Made by a program: the position numbers and the translations under genes. This document shows positions 1,170-11,376 of a stretch of DNA of 64,000 nt, piece by piece (positions within the stretch are counted from its first letter, which is position 1; every line of letters starts with the position of its first letter). The notes under the pieces are model-generated. The model ran no database searches and had not been told where the DNA came from. It saw only the letters and a program-made list of their open reading frames with translations. Location: NCBI GenBank assembly GCA_003228195.2, contig QGNO01000005.1, positions 1 to 64,000 of the forward strand, in the 5' to 3' direction. Source of the DNA: Chloroflexota bacterium. Lineage in GTDB: Bacteria; Chloroflexota; Dehalococcoidia; Lucifugimonadales; QGNO01.

Positions 1170-2390
1170 TTAAATGGTGCCTTGTTTCCTTAGGGTTACA
1201 ACCTCATCAGAAGAGTATCCCAATTCTCCATAAACCTCGTGGTTGTGCTGACCATGTGTAGGCGCAACGCCACGCACAGACCAAGGGGCTTTGGGAAGTC
1301 TAAATACTTCACCGGGAATTTTCGTTGAACCTATAACAGGGTGTTCTACCTCAGTGAAATATGCTCTCTCATCCAGCTGTGGACAATTCACTAGATCTTC
1401 TGAGGTTTGCACTATGGCGGCGACCCATCCGTCACCCATAGCCTTATTGAAATATTCGAATTTAGGCATTTCTTCCAATATGGGCATCAAAATGGTGTCG
1501 AGTTCCTCTAGGTGTTGCTGCCGATCGGCTTCTGAAGCAAACCTCGGATCATCAATTTCCGGCCGATCGAGTAAAGTGACATAATCTTTATAGTTACCCC
1601 GTTGGCGACCCCATTGAAACGTTGGACCCATGTAGCCATCTTTCGCCGGAACTATACCCTCAAACTTCACCCCTTTGGTAGATCCGCTTTCGTTCTTAGG
1701 CGCTCTACGCTCAATAAAGCCATTGTAAATATATCTGACAGGAGAGGTGTAATGGTGTGCGGCAGCTGATTCAGCGGTGGACAGATCAATATACTGACCC
1801 TGGCCACTTCGCTGAGCAGTGAATAACCCTGCCGAAGCCGCATAAGCTGCAATTATTCCCGCCATCCATAGGGTTTGTGGATGTCCATGTTTTAGTGGTT
1901 CTCTATGATATGCACCACTTGAGTACATAATGCCACTCATGGCCTGGTACAACAGATCGTTTCCTTGAAAATCTCTATATGGGCCATTCTCACCAAACGG
2001 CGATATCTTGGTCACAACAATTTTAGGATTAATCTGCTCAATTTCGCCATAGCTCAAACCTAGGCTGTCTAAATAACCGGGACCGAAACTCTCTATTAGA
2101 CCATCGGAGGACTTTATCAAATCTTTGAATATTTGCCGGCCTTCGGCAGTTTCCAAGTTCAACGTGATGCCTTTCTTGTTACTATTGAGATAGAAATAGG
2201 TCAGACTCTTTTCGGGATGAGGATCGTCATGATGAAAAGGCCCAAGCCTCCGTGCAGGGTCTCCAAGTTGAGGGGATTCTATTTTTATGACTTCCGATCC
2301 ATAGTCACCGAACATTCTTGCCGCAAACGGGCCAGATATGCCAGTACTGATATCCAAAATTTTGAATTGCCCTAATCCGGTCTTAGTCAT
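1170..2390 (-). CDS. CaiB/BaiF (family III) CoA-transferase
   Basis: N-terminal LDISTGISGPFAARMFGDYGSEVIKIE and GLIESFGPGYLDSLGLSY motifs. Confidence 0.9.
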   Translation of the reverse strand: MTKTGLGQFKILDISTGISGPFAARMFGDYGSEVIKIESPQLGDPARRLGPFHHDDPHPEKSLTYFYLNSNKKGITLNLETAEGRQIFKDLIKSSDGLIESFGPGYLDSLGLSYGEIEQINPKIVVTKISPFGENGPYRDFQGNDLLYQAMSGIMYSSGAYHREPLKHGHPQTLWMAGIIAAYAASAGLFTAQRSGQGQYIDLSTAESAAAHHYTSPVRYIYNGFIERRAPKNESGSTKGVKFEGIVPAKDGYMGPTFQWGRQRGNYKDYVTLLDRPEIDDPRFASEADRQQHLEELDTILMPILEEMPKFEYFNKAMGDGWVAAIVQTSEDLVNCPQLDERAYFTEVEHPVIGSTKIPGEVFRLPKAPWSVRGVAPTHGQHNHEVYGELGYSSDEVVTLRKQGTI

Positions 2391-3718
2391 ATCCCCAACT
2401 TCTGTCGATAATCAGGGTCAATGGTAGACCCAACGCCCTGTTCGATCTGCCTAGTAAGATTCGTGGGCTTAGCGCTTCCTGGATTTATCGGGTCCTTGCC
2501 AATGACATTCGTTTCGTACATCTTAGCGATTTCCCCTTGATCAATCCCAAGAAGGTCTCCAAAAACGTATTCGTTATGTTCTCCCAACATAGGAGCGGGG
2601 CGTCGTATATACGCCGGGGTTTTTGACATCTTCCAAGGTCGACCAAAGTATAGCCGAGTGCCTATATCTGTCTCGGGCTGATGAGTAACCCTTTCAAAGA
2701 ACTCACGCTCCTTAATATGAGGGTCGAGAGCGAAATCTCTTCCGTCCATCACTGCCATTGCTGGAACCCCGGCCTTTTGTAGCTGGTAAGCCAAATCTGC
2801 TTGGTCTTTATCCTTTGTCCAATCACCAATTAATTGATCGAGTTCATCCTGGTTATGCCAGCGAAGAATAGGGTCGGCAAATTTCTCCTCCTGAGCCCAG
2901 CCTGGGGATCCCATTTGATCCACCAGAGCCTCCCACTGATCATCATTTTCAGTAGTGATAGCTATCCACCTGTCATCGCCCTTGCACTGGTAAACACCAT
3001 GGGGTGACAAATATTTATGCCTGTTTCCCATCGAACTTCCGCTACGTCCATTGGAGATGTAGTCCATTACTGCATCGCCCAAAGTGGAAACACCTATCTG
3101 ATACATAGCAAAATCGACCCATTGGCCTTCACCAGTCGTGTCCCTGTGATGAAGAGCGGCCAAAACAGCAAATACCGCCATCCAACCAACATGTTGATCA
3201 AAAAACGAAATGCCAACTCTACGTGGACCCTCACCCTCATACCCTGCAAATTGACTTAGCCCACAGGTTAATTCAAACATCCTTCCTATGCCCGCATATG
3301 ACCGCCAAGGACCTGTGTAACCGAATCCGGTATTGGAAAGATATATGAGGTCCGGCTTTACTGCACGAAGAGCGTCATATCCGAGGCCTAAACGATCCAT
3401 GGTCCCTGATCTATTGTTTTCTATAATAACGTCTGAAACCCTGACTATATCCTTGAATGCATTTACTGCATCGTCTTCTTTAAGATTTAGAGTTACGCCT
3501 ACTTTTCCCCTTTGCAGGGTATTAAAACTACCATCCCGATCCCAATGCCTCTCGCCTGGGTCATTCTCCGGGAAAACCCCACCCTCGCCCCTGAACAGTG
3601 TGTGGCTATCAACTTTAATTACTTCTGCCCCCATATCAGCCATAATATGAAGGGCTGTTGGCATAGCTACCATCGTGGTCGAATCTATTACCCTTATTCC
3701 CTCGAGTGCACCACTCAT
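2387..3718 (-). CDS. CaiB/BaiF (family III) CoA-transferase
   Basis: RVIDSTTMVAMPTALHIMADMGAEVIKVD and NNRSGTMDRLGLGYDALRAVKPDLIYLSNTGFG motifs; stop overlaps the start of the neighbouring CoA-transferase. Confidence 0.9.
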   Translation of the reverse strand: MSGALEGIRVIDSTTMVAMPTALHIMADMGAEVIKVDSHTLFRGEGGVFPENDPGERHWDRDGSFNTLQRGKVGVTLNLKEDDAVNAFKDIVRVSDVIIENNRSGTMDRLGLGYDALRAVKPDLIYLSNTGFGYTGPWRSYAGIGRMFELTCGLSQFAGYEGEGPRRVGISFFDQHVGWMAVFAVLAALHHRDTTGEGQWVDFAMYQIGVSTLGDAVMDYISNGRSGSSMGNRHKYLSPHGVYQCKGDDRWIAITTENDDQWEALVDQMGSPGWAQEEKFADPILRWHNQDELDQLIGDWTKDKDQADLAYQLQKAGVPAMAVMDGRDFALDPHIKEREFFERVTHQPETDIGTRLYFGRPWKMSKTPAYIRRPAPMLGEHNEYVFGDLLGIDQGEIAKMYETNVIGKDPINPGSAKPTNLTRQIEQGVGSTIDPDYRQKLGI

Positions 3719-3811
3719 GTCTCACCCCTTTTTAAGGACACTGAAAGCCTTATTTACTTATTGCGGCACAATAGCTAACAAAACTCGTTCTTAAACGACG
3801 CTAAGCGCCTT

Positions 3812-5170
3812 CTAATACCAGTCTCTGTAGAAAGTCTCGTATGGTACGAAATTCGTTTTTGAAGGATGTGGAATCGGAAGCTCGACAGGCCCAGCTTCCT
3901 TTGAAGGTAGATAAACAGTCCCGGTACCTATGACCTGTGCTTCGCCAACTTGGTTAACGCCCTGATATTTTATACCTACAGCATAGTACTCTCTGTCACC
4001 TGGGCTACCACCATTGCTAGAGTCACCTTTTTGAATCTCTTTAAACTTCTTCGTAACCTCACCGGTATAGATAGTGACGTCGCCATAATAAACCGGCTTG
4101 CGAAGAGCTATCTGGAGCCTTCTTATAAATCCGTTATCACCCATCCAATTAGTGAACAACTGCTCACACATCTGGGTTCTCTGAACACCAAAATCAAACG
4201 GCCCAGGCTGGCCGCGGTAAATTGCGAGTAGGGCATCTTCATGTTCCGCTCCCGCGCCTTTCCATCTTGTTATCGGATTTTCCCACGCGCTGTTATTTAA
4301 CCTTTGCCGTCTATAAGCAGGCTCAAATGCTAATTCGTCGCCTGGTGCCAATTGATCAGATACGGTAGCGTAAGAGACTGAGTGATAGGAAACCTGATCC
4401 AACAGTGTCCAAGGGGGTAGAACCACAGGCCCAAGCTTTTCGCCTACTTCAACGTCTTCCCAATACCGGGCATCGGCCCCACGCCTCTCAAGTCCCTGAA
4501 TCTGATCGAGTATGTCTCCGATTTGCTCAGAATTGTAGCTTGATGTCTTTCTCTCATAAAGCATATTCTGACCCAGCTTTGATGAGTCCATAGCCCTGGA
4601 GTTGCCCATTTCTCTCATAGGGACGTATATCTGGGTCCCATAACACTTGCCCACAAGATCTCCGTGATAGTCCCAATACTGGTTCTCGGATATCATAAAA
4701 GCCAGATTGCCTCGAGACCCAGGTTTTTCAAATATCTCTTTAGTGACTTTGGAAGCACGGAATTTCGAGCCCACCTTAACTCCGTCATAAAATTCCCAGG
4801 CCGCTCCTGATATAAAGTTAGCCAAAGGATACCCGCCAGGTCTTACGGCACCATGAGGAGAAGGATACTTTACCAACGCCAATATTGGCCCAGGTGCCAC
4901 TTGGCTCCTGTAGATAGTGCCCTTGCCATGATCAGGATCGGTGAATAAAGGATTGTCGTCGCCGATGGTCAAAGCATACTTCGCCACCAGATCAGGTGTG
5001 AATCTCTGCGAATATTCGTAAGGAGGACCAGCCTGATCAAACGGGGAGGGCGACCATGGTGGCCGATTCTCTCCCGACTCCTTCTCAAGCTCTTCCCTCG
5101 ACTTTTCGAGAAATTCAGCTACAGCGTCTTCAAAGCTCTGTTCTTGCGTTGTCATACCCAAGCCCCCCAA
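3812..5170 (-). CDS. MaoC-like double-hotdog (de)hydratase family protein
   Basis: Acyl dehydratase-like segments (ALTIGDDNPLFTDPDH; RTQMCEQLFTNWMGDNGFIRRL); paralogue of 5213-6361. Confidence 0.75.
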   Translation of the reverse strand: MGGLGMTTQEQSFEDAVAEFLEKSREELEKESGENRPPWSPSPFDQAGPPYEYSQRFTPDLVAKYALTIGDDNPLFTDPDHGKGTIYRSQVAPGPILALVKYPSPHGAVRPGGYPLANFISGAAWEFYDGVKVGSKFRASKVTKEIFEKPGSRGNLAFMISENQYWDYHGDLVGKCYGTQIYVPMREMGNSRAMDSSKLGQNMLYERKTSSYNSEQIGDILDQIQGLERRGADARYWEDVEVGEKLGPVVLPPWTLLDQVSYHSVSYATVSDQLAPGDELAFEPAYRRQRLNNSAWENPITRWKGAGAEHEDALLAIYRGQPGPFDFGVQRTQMCEQLFTNWMGDNGFIRRLQIALRKPVYYGDVTIYTGEVTKKFKEIQKGDSSNGGSPGDREYYAVGIKYQGVNQVGEAQVIGTGTVYLPSKEAGPVELPIPHPSKTNFVPYETFYRDWY

Positions 5171-5212
5171 CCTTCGAAGTTATGTTATAAGGCTAATCGC
5201 ATACGTAAACGA

Positions 5213-6361
5213 CTAGTGTGGGATTGGCAAGGCGACAGTGTGACCAGGGTTCGGCAAATAGGCGGTCGCTGTACCCTCAGCTATCGTCGTTCCTAGCTGA
5301 TTAATACCCGTAATGGCAATATCCACTGCAAAGTACGACTCTGAGTCAACCTCTTCGATACGCTTGCCAGTCACCTTGCCATTAAGCCACATCGTGTCAC
5401 CATATACCCAATGCTCAGGGACGCATATGTCTAAAGACCGCAAGAACGCGTCATCACCCATCCAATGCGTGACGACCTGCCCGGCTAAACAAACCCTCTG
5501 GATACCCCGGCTTGGTGGAGACTTGAATCCCATCTCTTCACAAGCAAGTATGTCCTCAAAGCTCTGGTCAGCATCCCAGTAAGGCCAGTTAGTAGTCGGG
5601 TTAGTAACCACTCTACCCGGGTATTTATCTTTTAGGTCATTGTAAACCAATGCTCCTAGGGAAAGTGATTTGGCTTCGGCTACTACCCACGCCATCATGT
5701 CTGATAGCGTCAGAGGACCCTTAACTAATTGCGGGAGGTCTTCTCCGACTTCCACATCGTCATAATATCGTAGCAACTTGCCTCGGGGTTCTGGTTCAGC
5801 CTCTATGTCATTTTCAATCTTATGAATCTCTTCGTCTGAGTAGCGATAGATATCTCTGGACTCGATCATATCCTTGCCGCGCTCGTAGGCGAGCATTGAG
5901 TTTACGCCCTTGCCAGTTCCGATGAGTCCGCCATAAGAGTTTCGATATTCAACAGAAGATTCCACATCTGCAGATTCGTAACCCCATCTTTTGCCCGCTT
6001 CTTTAACGTCGGTTACCTTGATTGTGCTTTCGAGCCTGTCACCAACTCGAATTATGTCCGTCCATTCAAAAGAACCACGTGTCAGAAAGGGAGACACGCC
6101 GTACTGTTTATTGACGTACGGACCTCCTGAATTCGGCGTCCTGACAGCAGCAACAAACGTGGGAGGAGCAATCATGCTGTTGTATTTTGTCGCAACTCCT
6201 CCGCCTGGATCTTTGTACAGAGTATTAGGATCACCTAGAGCAGCACAGAACCTTCGAATTGTAAGCCAATCAGCAAGATCCGTACCTGCAGGAACGTCAT
6301 CCACTTCTTTGCCAACAAGTGCCTTGGCGTCTTTAACAAAACCATTCAAATCACTAGCCAT
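5213..6361 (-). CDS. MaoC-like double-hotdog (de)hydratase family protein
   Basis: FCAALGDPNTLYKDPG and QRVCLAGQVVTHWMGDDAFLRSL motifs; same architecture as 3812-5170. Confidence 0.75.
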   Translation of the reverse strand: MASDLNGFVKDAKALVGKEVDDVPAGTDLADWLTIRRFCAALGDPNTLYKDPGGGVATKYNSMIAPPTFVAAVRTPNSGGPYVNKQYGVSPFLTRGSFEWTDIIRVGDRLESTIKVTDVKEAGKRWGYESADVESSVEYRNSYGGLIGTGKGVNSMLAYERGKDMIESRDIYRYSDEEIHKIENDIEAEPEPRGKLLRYYDDVEVGEDLPQLVKGPLTLSDMMAWVVAEAKSLSLGALVYNDLKDKYPGRVVTNPTTNWPYWDADQSFEDILACEEMGFKSPPSRGIQRVCLAGQVVTHWMGDDAFLRSLDICVPEHWVYGDTMWLNGKVTGKRIEEVDSESYFAVDIAITGINQLGTTIAEGTATAYLPNPGHTVALPIPH

Positions 6362-6531
6362 ACTGCCTCCTTAAAGCTGAGCTATTACTCAGTTCCAATA
6401 GACTATCGAGTAATTAACCTAAAGCGTAGACTAGGGTATATCTCAGAAACGGTATTTCGTCAATACTATTTCGACTTTACTTAAGCAAATCGCCAAAATG
6501 AAAGTACGGACCGAATCATTACCCTAGTCGC

Positions 6532-7623
6532 TCAGGATAAACTGTATTGGATACCCAATTCCCCAGAGATATTTCTCAACCAATCTATGACTTCCTGGTG
6601 GAGAGGTATACCTTTCACTTTTCGGACCTCTTCTACTTCAAACTCAGGCAAACCTGGATATAGAACCCTTTCGTGGCCTGGAGCAGGAGGGGTGTTCCTG
6701 AGTGTTCGCAAAAATTCGTCCATCATGTCTTTAAATTGTTCGACCGGTGCAAACGCATCCACTTTGTATGCCGCTACCATATGCGAGTAGTTACGCACTC
6801 CACCTGCAGCGGCTATCATTCCTGAGTTATTCCCAGACAGTAAACCACAAAGTATATCTACCATGGCTCCAAGGCCATATCCCTTATGGGAGCCCAGTTC
6901 TCTGGTCCCACCCAATGGAAGGCCATGATAAGTTTCAGGAAGCGGGGCAGGGGACATTATTGGAGTACCGTCTTTATCGGCAATCCATCCTGCTTCAACA
7001 TCTATTCCCAGTCTCTTAGCCAGATCAAACTTGTTTGAGGCAACAGCACTAGTAGCCATGTCCAAAACGAACGGTGGCTCATGTCTCGCCGGAGCAGCAA
7101 AAGCTATTGGATTGGTCCCTAATCTAGGTTCACTGCCAAACGTTGGCAGCACAGTAGCTCTGGTACTAGACATGCAGACCCCAATCATATCGTGATCTAA
7201 GGCCATCATTGAATGATAAGAAGCCATTCCTAAGTGTTTTCCATTGTGGATAGTAACCATTCCTAACCCAGTTTTGTTTGCCTTATCAATGGCAATTTCC
7301 ATAGCCTTTGGCGTTGTAATCAATCCCAAGCCTGCATCAGAATCAACGTTAGCAGTGGCTGGAGTTTCACGTATAATTCTAAAGTTGGGCTTTGGATTAA
7401 TACCTCCTTGGTTATACTCATCGACATAAACTCGCAACTGATTAGACACCCCATGGCTATCTATTCCTCGCAAATCAGCTGACACTAGTACATCGGCTCC
7501 TATCTTCGCTTGATCAAAGGGAACCTGTAATTTCTGGAATATCTCAGTTACTAGCTCCCTCAAATCTTCATGTTGGACAACAACCATGTCCTCTTCCGGA
7601 ATGGTAAAACTTTTAAGCATCAC
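6532..7623 (-). CDS. Ldh family (malate/L-lactate/ureidoglycolate-type) NAD(P)-dependent dehydrogenase
   Basis: DLRGIDSHGVSNQLRVYVDEYNQGGINPKP, GTNPIAFAAPA and GSHKGYGLGAMVDILCGLLSG motifs. Confidence 0.9.
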   Translation of the reverse strand: MMLKSFTIPEEDMVVVQHEDLRELVTEIFQKLQVPFDQAKIGADVLVSADLRGIDSHGVSNQLRVYVDEYNQGGINPKPNFRIIRETPATANVDSDAGLGLITTPKAMEIAIDKANKTGLGMVTIHNGKHLGMASYHSMMALDHDMIGVCMSSTRATVLPTFGSEPRLGTNPIAFAAPARHEPPFVLDMATSAVASNKFDLAKRLGIDVEAGWIADKDGTPIMSPAPLPETYHGLPLGGTRELGSHKGYGLGAMVDILCGLLSGNNSGMIAAAGGVRNYSHMVAAYKVDAFAPVEQFKDMMDEFLRTLRNTPPAPGHERVLYPGLPEFEVEEVRKVKGIPLHQEVIDWLRNISGELGIQYSLS

Positions 7624-7736
7624 GCCCTCCTACATATAACTCCTTAATAATAATCCTATTCAGCGTATCTTCAAAGTGTTGCAGGAGAATGGCTTAGGAA
7701 ATAGACTATGAAAGCTCAGACAATTAGGAGGCAGAA

Positions 7737-9161
7737 ATGGCCAATGAACGAGACCTCGCCTTTACATCCGCATGGAAGTTACGCGAGCTGATTCAGAAGA
7801 AAGAAGTCTCTTCTGTCGAACTTACCAAGCTATACCTAAAAAGAATCGAAAATTTGGACTCTCAATTGAATGCTTACCTGACGGTCACAGCCGACCAGGC
7901 ACTAAAGGATGCTGAAGCCGCGGACGCAGCCATACATGGCGGAACAGCAACAGGAACGCTAACAGGCATACCTATCTCAATAAAAGATTTGAACCTCACT
8001 AAGGGAGTTCGCACTACAAGAGGGTCACTGCTGTACAAGGATTTCATACCTCATGCAGATGAGCCAGTAGTTAGGAAGATAAAAGAGTCCGGAGCAATAA
8101 TATTAGGAAAAACCAACACTCCGGAGTTCGGCGCTTACGCAACTACCGAAAATCGACTTGGCGATCCCTGTGTTAATCCTTGGAACACAACTTGTACGGC
8201 CGGGGGGTCTAGCGGTGGCGCAGCGGCTGGGCTTGCAGCAGGGCTACATCCATTAGCTCAAGGCAGTGACGGGGGCGGCTCCATTCGCATTCCAGCAAGT
8301 ATATGTGGGGTATTTGGCATTAAACCAACTCAAGGAAGAGTATCCCGGCCGTATAAGGGGCCTGGAGGATGGGGGCAATTCTCACAAAATGGCCCGATGT
8401 CTCGAACTGTCAGAGACACAGCAATATTGCTACAGGTTATGGCGGGGCCAGACCCGGAAGACGCAATAGCTCTTCAGGAGCAACCACCAGACTTCTCAGC
8501 CCAACTTGGGGAAGGAGTTAAAGGGATGCGCATTGGTTGGAGCCCAAACATGGGTTCGACACCAGTAGATCCCGAAGTCCGGGACATCACAGAGAAAGCC
8601 GTCCGTGTGTTCGAAGAACTTGGGGCCACGGTTGAAGAAGCTCCTGTTTCAATTAATCACGAAGTTATTACAAATATTTTTATGACAATTTGGCTATCTG
8701 ACTACTGCACGACACATGGCGAAACTATGAAAACGAAGGGCGATCAGTTCACTGACACTGTCAGAGGGATGCTTGAAGAAGCACTAACCTGGCCGGCGTC
8801 GAAACTCGCCTCCGCCTTACATGGGTTGGAATGGCACAGATATGACATGGACCAAATCATAAAACAATACGACCTATTGATTACACCAACTTTAGCAACT
8901 TCGGCATTTAAAACGGGGGAGAGGCCAACTCTGATAGATGGTCAAAAAGTTGATCCGTTCTGGGGATTCACTCCTTTTACGTATCCTATTAACATGAGCG
9001 GGCACACCGCATCCAGTGTGCCTTGTGGATTTAACAGCGAAGGCTTGCCGGTTGGGCTACACTTGATAGGCAATAAAGGGAAAGAGGCAACTGTGTTGCA
9101 AGCGTCATATGCGTTTGAAGAAGCACGGCCTTGGGCCCATCTTTTACCTCCTGTATCATGA
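7737..9161 (+). CDS. Amidase (amidase signature family)
   Basis: GIPISIKDLN and CTAGGSSGGAAAGLAAGLHPLAQGSDGGGSIRIPAS amidase-signature Ser-Ser-Lys motif. Confidence 0.93.
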   Translation: MANERDLAFTSAWKLRELIQKKEVSSVELTKLYLKRIENLDSQLNAYLTVTADQALKDAEAADAAIHGGTATGTLTGIPISIKDLNLTKGVRTTRGSLLYKDFIPHADEPVVRKIKESGAIILGKTNTPEFGAYATTENRLGDPCVNPWNTTCTAGGSSGGAAAGLAAGLHPLAQGSDGGGSIRIPASICGVFGIKPTQGRVSRPYKGPGGWGQFSQNGPMSRTVRDTAILLQVMAGPDPEDAIALQEQPPDFSAQLGEGVKGMRIGWSPNMGSTPVDPEVRDITEKAVRVFEELGATVEEAPVSINHEVITNIFMTIWLSDYCTTHGETMKTKGDQFTDTVRGMLEEALTWPASKLASALHGLEWHRYDMDQIIKQYDLLITPTLATSAFKTGERPTLIDGQKVDPFWGFTPFTYPINMSGHTASSVPCGFNSEGLPVGLHLIGNKGKEATVLQASYAFEEARPWAHLLPPVS

Positions 9162-10596: not shown

Positions 10597-11376
10597 TCAG
10601 CCTTGAGCTCGGGCTTCTTTAAGGGTATTTAAAGCCGTAGACGCTCCATTAGTCACCATCACAATATCACTGCCTATTTGACTTAATTTAAAGCCTTGTT
10701 TAAATAGCTTCGCCGCCTCCAATGGACCCACGCCATGATGACACGGCACTAATCCAGTCGCATTGGCAACATCTAGTACGCGCTGACAGGCGGCAATATG
10801 TTTAGAGTCATTAAACGCATCGGGTCCAGGAACTAAATCCAAGGAGAGCGCAAGATCGGACGGCCCAATATAAAACCCATCAATACCTGGCGCCTTTGCT
10901 ATTTCTTCAAGATTTTCAATAGCTTGAGTGGTTTCAATCATAACCAAAACGACAATCTCTTCGTTGGCGTGTTGCAAATAATCAGCGCCAGCGTAAAATT
11001 TGGCCCTGTTCGCACCAAAACTCCTATCTCCCAAAGGATGATAACGTGCTGCTCGCCCTGCTGCTACCGCATCTTCATACGTATTTACCATAGGGACTAT
11101 AACTCCATAAGCACCTGCATCCAAAACGAACTGAATTACTTGGGGATCATTCCATGGCAACCGAACTATGGGTACCGTATCTGTGGTAGAAATGGCTTGC
11201 AGACATGCAACTGCTTTATCCGTAGTTACACTCATACCATGCTGCATATCTATAATGACTGCATCGTATCCAGCATGAGCCATAGCTTCTGCTAAATAGG
11301 TGTTTCCAGTTGAAATCCACCCTGCTGCTGCGGGTTTACCTTCTCGCCACATCGCTTTGATTTTATTCGGCCTCAT
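10597..11376 (-). CDS. HpcH/HpaI aldolase family protein
   Basis: GYDAVIIDMQHGM, YHPLGDRSFGANRA and FYIGPSDLALSL motifs. Confidence 0.93.
   Translation of the reverse strand: MRPNKIKAMWREGKPAAAGWISTGNTYLAEAMAHAGYDAVIIDMQHGMSVTTDKAVACLQAISTTDTVPIVRLPWNDPQVIQFVLDAGAYGVIVPMVNTYEDAVAAGRAARYHPLGDRSFGANRAKFYAGADYLQHANEEIVVLVMIETTQAIENLEEIAKAPGIDGFYIGPSDLALSLDLVPGPDAFNDSKHIAACQRVLDVANATGLVPCHHGVGPLEAAKLFKQGFKLSQIGSDIVMVTNGASTALNTLKEARAQG

Follow-up and report, generated by a model that had tools for sequence, protein, structure and literature searches.

A conserved gene set for a predicted BbsEF-type CoA-transferase and a probable split MaoC-type hydratase in SAR202-type Chloroflexota

The 3-hydroxypropionate bicycle cluster of Chloroflexus, which contains the succinyl-coenzyme A (CoA):malate CoA-transferase SmtAB, acts on malate-type C5 acids and groups a Chloroflexota pair of family III CoA-transferases with MaoC-type hydratases. 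Its genes include SmtA, SmtB, Meh and Mch, and the genome compared here was assigned to Chloroflexus in part by its Mct gene cluster. A CoA-transferase followed by a MaoC-family hydratase also acts on C5 dicarboxylates in the itaconate/methylsuccinate cluster (Ict, Ich, Ccl; PMC12290011) and in the haloarchaeal Mct-Mch system (PMC5592240). Both enzyme kinds are known in split form. BbsEF uses succinyl-CoA as CoA donor when it activates a substituted succinate (PMC10818641), and in the steroid enoyl-CoA hydratase ChsH1-ChsH2 of Mycobacterium a catalytic MaoC subunit, ChsH1, carries the catalytic dyad while its degenerate partner ChsH2 has Tyr in place of the His (PMC11321319). Here we compare these systems with a module of five genes, two for family III CoA-transferases (CTa, CTb), two for MaoC-like proteins (MaoS, MaoL) and one for a dehydrogenase (Ldh_2), in a 64,000-nucleotide (nt) stretch of DNA from a Chloroflexota bacterium (contig QGNO01000005.1, positions 1 to 64,000), which we call the window. 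The source genome is a 1.52-Mb draft assembly of 28 contigs, about 90% complete, and its order of Dehalococcoidia takes in at least part of SAR202 (SAR202-VII-2, QEVV01000005.1). The module is real, conserved and a variant of known enzyme kinds, with a putative substrate assignment.

The original prediction, made from the letters of the window, had proposed five same-strand genes of these families. All five open reading frames were found on the minus strand at the stated coordinates with Pfam domains of these families, and are given here in order of transcription.

Ldh_2, 6532..7623, minus strand: malate/lactate/sulfolactate-type NAD(P)-dependent 2-hydroxyacid dehydrogenase (PF02615, 362 bits)
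MaoS, 5213..6361, minus strand: short double-hotdog MaoC-like protein, probable degenerate partner subunit (PF13452)
MaoL, 3812..5155, minus strand: long double-hotdog MaoC-like protein, probable catalytic hydratase subunit (PF13452)
CTa, 2387..3718, minus strand: predicted BbsF-like catalytic subunit, 443 amino acids (CoA_transf_3, PF02515, 341 bits; Asp174 kept)
CTb, 1170..2390, minus strand: predicted BbsE-like non-catalytic subunit of a heteromeric family III CoA-transferase, 406 amino acids (CoA_transf_3, PF02515, 278 bits)

Ldh_2 and MaoS are separated by 170 nt, MaoS and MaoL by about 57 nt and MaoL and CTa by 93 nt. The 4-nt overlap of CTa with CTb suggests that their translation is coupled. 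The MaoL reading frame may start at TTG 5170 or at ATG 5155, the latter being more likely. Both MaoC-like proteins match the Pfam family FAS1_DH_region (PF13452), with 27 and 40 bits against a cut-off of 22.

The best match of CTa in the PDB is one chain of benzylsuccinate CoA-transferase (9fn0_B, 215 bits, vs 88 for 9fn0_A), and that of CTb is the other (9fn0_A, 192 bits, vs 102 for 9fn0_B). The catalytic Asp of family III is Asp174 in CTa, and the equivalent position in CTb holds Leu. Among the adjacent pairs of the window genome and its relatives the Asp was present in 32 of 32 CTa proteins and in 0 of 32 CTb proteins. In a phylogenetic tree one clade (support 0.58) unites all CTa and BbsF, another (support 1.0) all CTb and BbsE, and the branching is mirrored between the two halves, although the tree was rooted on the divergent Chloroflexus Mct, making the root uncertain. 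The distance matrices of CTa and CTb correlate strongly over the 32 pairs (Mantel r 0.95, 0 of 5000 permutations), as they do over the seven pairs of the window genome (r 0.91). The tree shows CTa and CTb as products of one old subunit duplication, the same one that gave BbsF and BbsE. Three distant CTb relatives (L144, L145, L158) still carry the Asp, so its loss in CTb would postdate the duplication and may have occurred more than once. Searches with the NCBIfam equivalogs for formyl-CoA, mesaconate and glutarate transferases gave 221 bits at best, below the cut-off of 700. CTa and CTb are very probably the catalytic and non-catalytic subunits of a single split enzyme of the BbsEF type. The original prediction had counted two CoA-transferases; both proteins do belong to family III, but a single enzyme in two halves is the better reading.

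The likeness to BbsEF lies in the two different family III subunits from adjacent genes, the single Asp per pair and the shared duplication. However, the window proteins scanned include neither a benzylsuccinate synthase nor products of bbs beta-oxidation genes, the genome of the module holds many paralogous pairs, and a MaoC pair stands in place of the bbs dehydrogenase and crotonase. SmtAB differs in keeping the Asp in both subunits, and the Smt proteins pair with each other in the tree, outside CTa and CTb. Membership of the SmtAB group was rejected on these two grounds, CTb lacking the Asp. The haloarchaeal Mct differs in being a single-subunit transferase (PMC5592240).

A different activity for the pairs has also been considered. 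DddD has a two-domain form, and one pair of the window genome is fused likewise into a protein of 898 amino acids on contig C16, with a CTa half that carries the Asp followed by a CTb half with Trp at that position. Landry et al. (PMC5395668) suggested that some SAR202 CaiB/BaiF proteins may be DddD-like CoA-transferase/lyases, and in that paper DddD supplies the top Swiss-Prot matches of a CaiB/BaiF subset. We consider such an activity very improbable for the paired transferases, which where unfused match BbsE and BbsF best among the solved structures compared (a set that did not include DddD), carry one Asp per pair and adjoin hydratases.

The two transferase genes are part of a much larger family. 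Family III is represented in the window genome by 17 genes or halves of genes, which form seven pairs (one fused) and three singles. The sample for the wider comparison comprised 117 genomes of the order, the window genome and 116 relatives. At E<=1e-40, 111-112 of the 117 have proteins that match the CTa or CTb profile, and first-look family III candidates reach 111-114 per genome, both counts taking in all family III relatives as well as the pairs. An expansion of CaiB/BaiF paralogs, the same protein family in the same bacterial group, was already reported for SAR202 by Landry et al. (2017; PMC5395668). The part of that paper considered here counts CoA-transferase paralogs, and describes neither catalytic/non-catalytic pairs nor MaoS-MaoL partners. 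The module had been proposed as an undescribed CoA-dependent one, which stands to the extent that a conserved module exists, but it is not unique and belongs to this expansion (PMC5395668). Some transferase genes form tandem arrays, one with two CTb and five CTa (L196:7669-17000, G060:C49) and another with three CTa and one CTb (L199), an arrangement that suggests one partner may serve several catalytic subunits.

MaoS and MaoL were predicted by AlphaFold2 (AF2) as double hotdogs with mean confidence (pLDDT) of 91.0 and 84.6, respectively. The best Foldseek matches of both are mycobacterial MaoC dehydratases, followed by a Chloroflexus MaoC protein, the mesaconyl-CoA hydratase MeaC and itaconyl-CoA hydratase, with modest TM-scores of 0.4-0.6 on the query. 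Active-site positions were taken from sequence alignment and not from the models, and MaoL residues are numbered without the initiator Met. The N-terminal hotdog of both proteins has the motif D-x-N-x-L-F/Y, compared with D-x-N-P-x-H in hydratases, which resembles the His to Tyr change in ChsH2 (PMC11321319). His304 of MaoL, in the C-terminal hotdog, aligns with the catalytic His of HadB (position 41) and that of ChsH1 (position 34). His304 and Asp320 are kept in 13 of 13 MaoL proteins. In MaoS the His is replaced by Phe, Tyr or Ala in 9 of 10, with Phe in that of the window, and the Asp320 equivalent is lost in all 10. MaoS also lies directly upstream of MaoL at each of the 10 MaoS loci. Taken together, this asymmetry makes it probable that MaoS and MaoL are the degenerate and catalytic subunits of one split hydratase. 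The two MaoC-like proteins of the original prediction are double hotdogs as described there, with the correction that they probably form one such pair.

An alternative, which we regard as improbable, is that MaoS and MaoL assist the CoA-transferase as thioesterases, isomerases or binders of CoA esters. The N-terminal domains have no His, MaoL lacks the canonical Asp of the His/Asp dyad, and acyl-CoA thioesterases appear among the lower fold matches. Set against this are the MaoC dehydratases and mesaconyl- and itaconyl-CoA hydratases at the top of the fold matches, the conservation of His304 and Asp320, and a sister cassette in which a crotonase occupies the same place. Such a crotonase adjoins CTa-CTb on contig C19 as well as in two relatives (L194, L195), and its position supports a hydratase step.

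A split hydratase of this kind would be similar to ChsH1-ChsH2 in joining a catalytic to a degenerate MaoC partner. It would differ in that both proteins are double hotdogs of about 400 amino acids and that the canonical Asp is absent; the operon in the window also has no DUF35 domain or aldolase. The hydratases of the itaconate cluster and of haloarchaeal Mct-Mch have very low sequence similarity to those of the module. Chloroflexus Meh was rejected as a relative of MaoL at 15 bits, and Chloroflexus Mch gave no match to MaoL.

MaoL proper, defined at E<=1e-60, was found in 7 of the 117 genomes: the window genome, G086, and five genomes of another family (G014, G049, G066, G080, G092). The order MaoS-MaoL-CTa-CTb is kept in all six MaoL-bearing relatives, among them JAPULR010000229.1 (Chloroflexi KW1-S21_197) and OY282371.1 and OX638324.1 (uncultured Dehalococcoidia). 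This synteny is more than chance, and the four-gene module is conserved. Neighbourhood conservation had been put forward as the check on the five-gene set; the four genes pass it in 6 of 6 relatives, but Ldh_2 is absent there. Five of the relatives (L074, L075, L106, L108, L197) have a gene of the OCD/mu-crystallin family between MaoL and CTa and one (L198) has none; the family was assigned by search at L075 and at the other loci by likeness of length and sequence. A scan of the genome contigs with MaoS alone returned no relatives, and it was the MaoL alignment as query that found them. More distant clusters of two hotdog and two transferase genes also occur, for example at L120 and L145, with MaoC identity of about 30%.

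Ldh_2 is a lineage-specific addition and not a conserved member of the module. Its best PDB matches are malate and sulfolactate dehydrogenases, and it scores 229 bits against the sulfolactate dehydrogenase equivalog, below the cut-off of 500. We observed, however, that FMN 2-hydroxyacid oxidase (FMN_dh) genes stand upstream of MaoS in two relatives (L075, L108), and that the window genome's only match to L-2-hydroxyglutarate oxidase (553 bits, cut-off 299) lies on contig C7, two genes upstream of another MaoS-MaoL locus with a major facilitator superfamily (MFS) transporter between them. In SAR202-VII-2 a single divergent amidase gene separates the only such match from a distant MaoC-MaoC-CTb-CTa cluster. 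Three unrelated families of 2-hydroxyacid oxidoreductase, Ldh_2, FMN_dh and L-2-hydroxyglutarate oxidase, are therefore found one or two genes upstream of MaoS; 2-hydroxyacid oxidation by unrelated enzymes recurs next to MaoS-MaoL, though not at every locus.

It is possible, if rather unlikely, that the true module consists only of MaoS-MaoL-CTa-CTb, with the OCD/mu-crystallin enzyme in most relatives, and that Ldh_2 was placed beside it by rearrangement and separately serves L-2-hydroxyglutarate or malate oxidation. The Ldh_2 family is present in 112 of the 117 genomes, and its close orthologs (55-64% identity; G045, G009, G049, G014) directly adjoin L-2-hydroxyglutarate oxidase, with those of G049 and G014 also near 5-oxoprolinase genes. 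No gap in the operon is wider than the 170 nt between Ldh_2 and MaoS, and none of the six syntenic relatives has Ldh_2 at this place. A random neighbour, however, would not predict the FMN-type and L-2-hydroxyglutarate oxidases that recur upstream of MaoS elsewhere.

If the oxidoreductases are instead part of the same chemistry, a route can be proposed. The hydroxyl added by a MaoC hydratase sits beta to a thioester; the one oxidised by Ldh_2 and the enzymes found in its place sits alpha to a carboxylate. Only in a malate-type C4 dicarboxylate do both fit one molecule, and we infer such a substrate on this basis. CTa and CTb would form one heteromeric transferase of the BbsEF kind, with Asp174 of CTa carrying the covalent acyl/CoA chemistry, and would move CoA from succinyl-CoA to a C4 dicarboxylate, namely a succinate or fumarate bearing an alkyl or aryl substituent. 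Next would act MaoS and MaoL, as a heteromeric double-hotdog enoyl-CoA hydratase whose active site, with His304 and perhaps Asp320, would lie in the MaoL C-terminal hotdog. Its product would be a CoA ester of the malyl type, with the hydroxyl alpha to the free carboxylate and beta to the thioester. The CoA-transferase could return the CoA to succinate, freeing a 2-hydroxydicarboxylate that Ldh_2, or a flavin 2-hydroxyacid oxidase in relatives, may oxidise to the 2-oxo acid. Given this fit and the BbsEF precedent, a sequence from an activated substituted succinate or fumarate through a malyl-type CoA ester, with CoA handed back to succinate, to a 2-oxo acid makes the most economical reading. 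The subunit identities, the Asp rule, the His/Asp asymmetry and the synteny are read from sequence, and from them we infer the assembly, all activities, the direction and the substrate class. CoA transfer, hydration and 2-hydroxyacid oxidation, the general chemistry foreseen in the original prediction, remain the best reading of these predicted activities, while the whole route with its candidate dicarboxylate substrate is a tentative proposal at somewhat less than even odds.

The absence of a thiolase or acyl-CoA dehydrogenase nearby had been noted at the outset, and we found none among about 30 larger window open reading frames scanned, with small frames only partly covered. The gene set might still feed ordinary beta-oxidation of branched or cyclic acids using an acyl-CoA dehydrogenase and thiolase encoded elsewhere, just as BbsEF feeds a beta-oxidation-type benzylsuccinate route (PMC10818641). 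Candidate acyl-CoA dehydrogenases, recognised by their N-termini and not confirmed by family search, do lie near some CTa-CTb pairs (L202, L204), but besides the lack of both enzymes among the scanned window proteins, none was recognised in the syntenic neighbourhoods as classified against a limited seed set. We judge this explanation quite improbable.

Several observations weigh against the dicarboxylate route. The mirrored signal of CTa and CTb is weak in the window genome's five closest pairs (r 0.29). One MaoS (contig C7) has His at the position of His304, and the hydratase Asp that should stand five residues before this His is absent in MaoL, with Gly in the window and other residues in orthologs. 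Because of this the hydratase activity of MaoL is likely but not assured; it is possible that Asp320 substitutes. Only the window genome has Ldh_2 beside the module, and no 2-hydroxyacid oxidoreductase was recognised upstream at L074, L197 and L198. The association with these enzymes was noticed after the fact, and the choice of neighbours inflates it. L-2-Hydroxyglutarate was itself rejected as a direct MaoC product on chemical grounds, its hydroxyl not being beta to either possible thioester, and the association therefore gives a chemical class and not a substrate. Finally, the OCD/mu-crystallin gene of five relatives is not explained by the route. Overall we give a probability of roughly 35% to the full reading, in which SAR202-type Chloroflexota would process substituted C4 dicarboxylates by an aerobic route not described before. 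Two enzymes, each divided into a working and a degenerate subunit, would make up this route, and the transferase would have multiplied into a large set of substrate-specific pairs in each genome.

Genes for RraA-like and HpaI-like aldolases, which could handle products of the route, lie near some loci (L106, L205, L206, L209, L210 and window 10597-11376). At L205, L206, L209 and L210 the HpaI-like gene is divergent from CTb-CTa, and at three of these an FMN 2-hydroxyacid oxidase follows 2-4 kb beyond it. The gene at 10597-11376 is the PF03328 gene nearest to the module and is HpaI-like; unlike the itaconate cluster, the module has no CitE-type or (S)-citramalyl-CoA lyase gene directly beside it. 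Another CTa-CTb pair of the window genome (L040:6661-10614, G000:C20) is followed after 88 nt by an NAD-dependent formate dehydrogenase (685 bits, cut-off 329). This neighbour had been a candidate D-2-hydroxyacid dehydrogenase and was dropped from the 2-hydroxyacid argument.

MaoL is present in one or two copies in relatives and in about ten or more in the window genome. Six contig ends of the window genome (G000) fall inside MaoL genes (C4, C7, C11, C19, C20 and C24; L029, L033, L044, L038, L039 and L042), and since the ends of C7 and C24 are identical in sequence, the breaks in the assembly probably stem from a MaoL duplication or gene conversion that happened recently. One MaoL copy (L030:6135-7487, G000:C4:28140-29483) is interrupted by a TGA stop and is likely a pseudogene or an assembly error. 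MaoL genes of 54-69% identity were also seen on contigs labelled Gemmatimonadales UBA2989 and Alphaproteobacteria 277c_15 (L109, L110, L112); these contigs may be misbinned, because their neighbouring genes resemble those of the window genome's MaoL loci. In Rhizobium sp. CF080 (L171) and Agrobacterium salinitolerans (L173) a distant cluster reads MaoC, a CoA-transferase without the Asp, a CoA-transferase with it, an unassigned protein and a CitE/RipC-like lyase, the last below its equivalog cut-off (151 bits vs 375). Both clusters stand behind an ATP-binding cassette (ABC) transporter and offer a cultivable test system.

Upstream of Ldh_2 an amidase gene (7737-9161) is divergent from the module.

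Intergenic region between the module and the divergent amidase gene, 7624..7736, no strand assigned: presumed promoter region, on the basis of gene layout

In pattern scans a minus-strand promoter-like match at 7674-7647 was weak and not above shuffled expectation. Across these scans promoter-like sites showed no excess (9 vs 11.3 in shuffles), and terminator-like sites a slight one (10 vs 5.9, sd 3.0). Just downstream of CTb the minus strand encodes a predicted lipoprotein with collagen-like GxY repeats (299-913).

A role in oxidising refractory marine organic matter is ascribed to SAR202-type bacteria, and to our knowledge no substrates have been assigned to their many CaiB/BaiF paralogs. 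Should many of these proteins prove to be halves of heteromeric enzymes of the BbsEF type, expressing one gene at a time would show no activity or mislead, and substituted dicarboxylic acids would become a testable class of substrate. The conserved set of four genes would provide a concrete pair of complexes to express.

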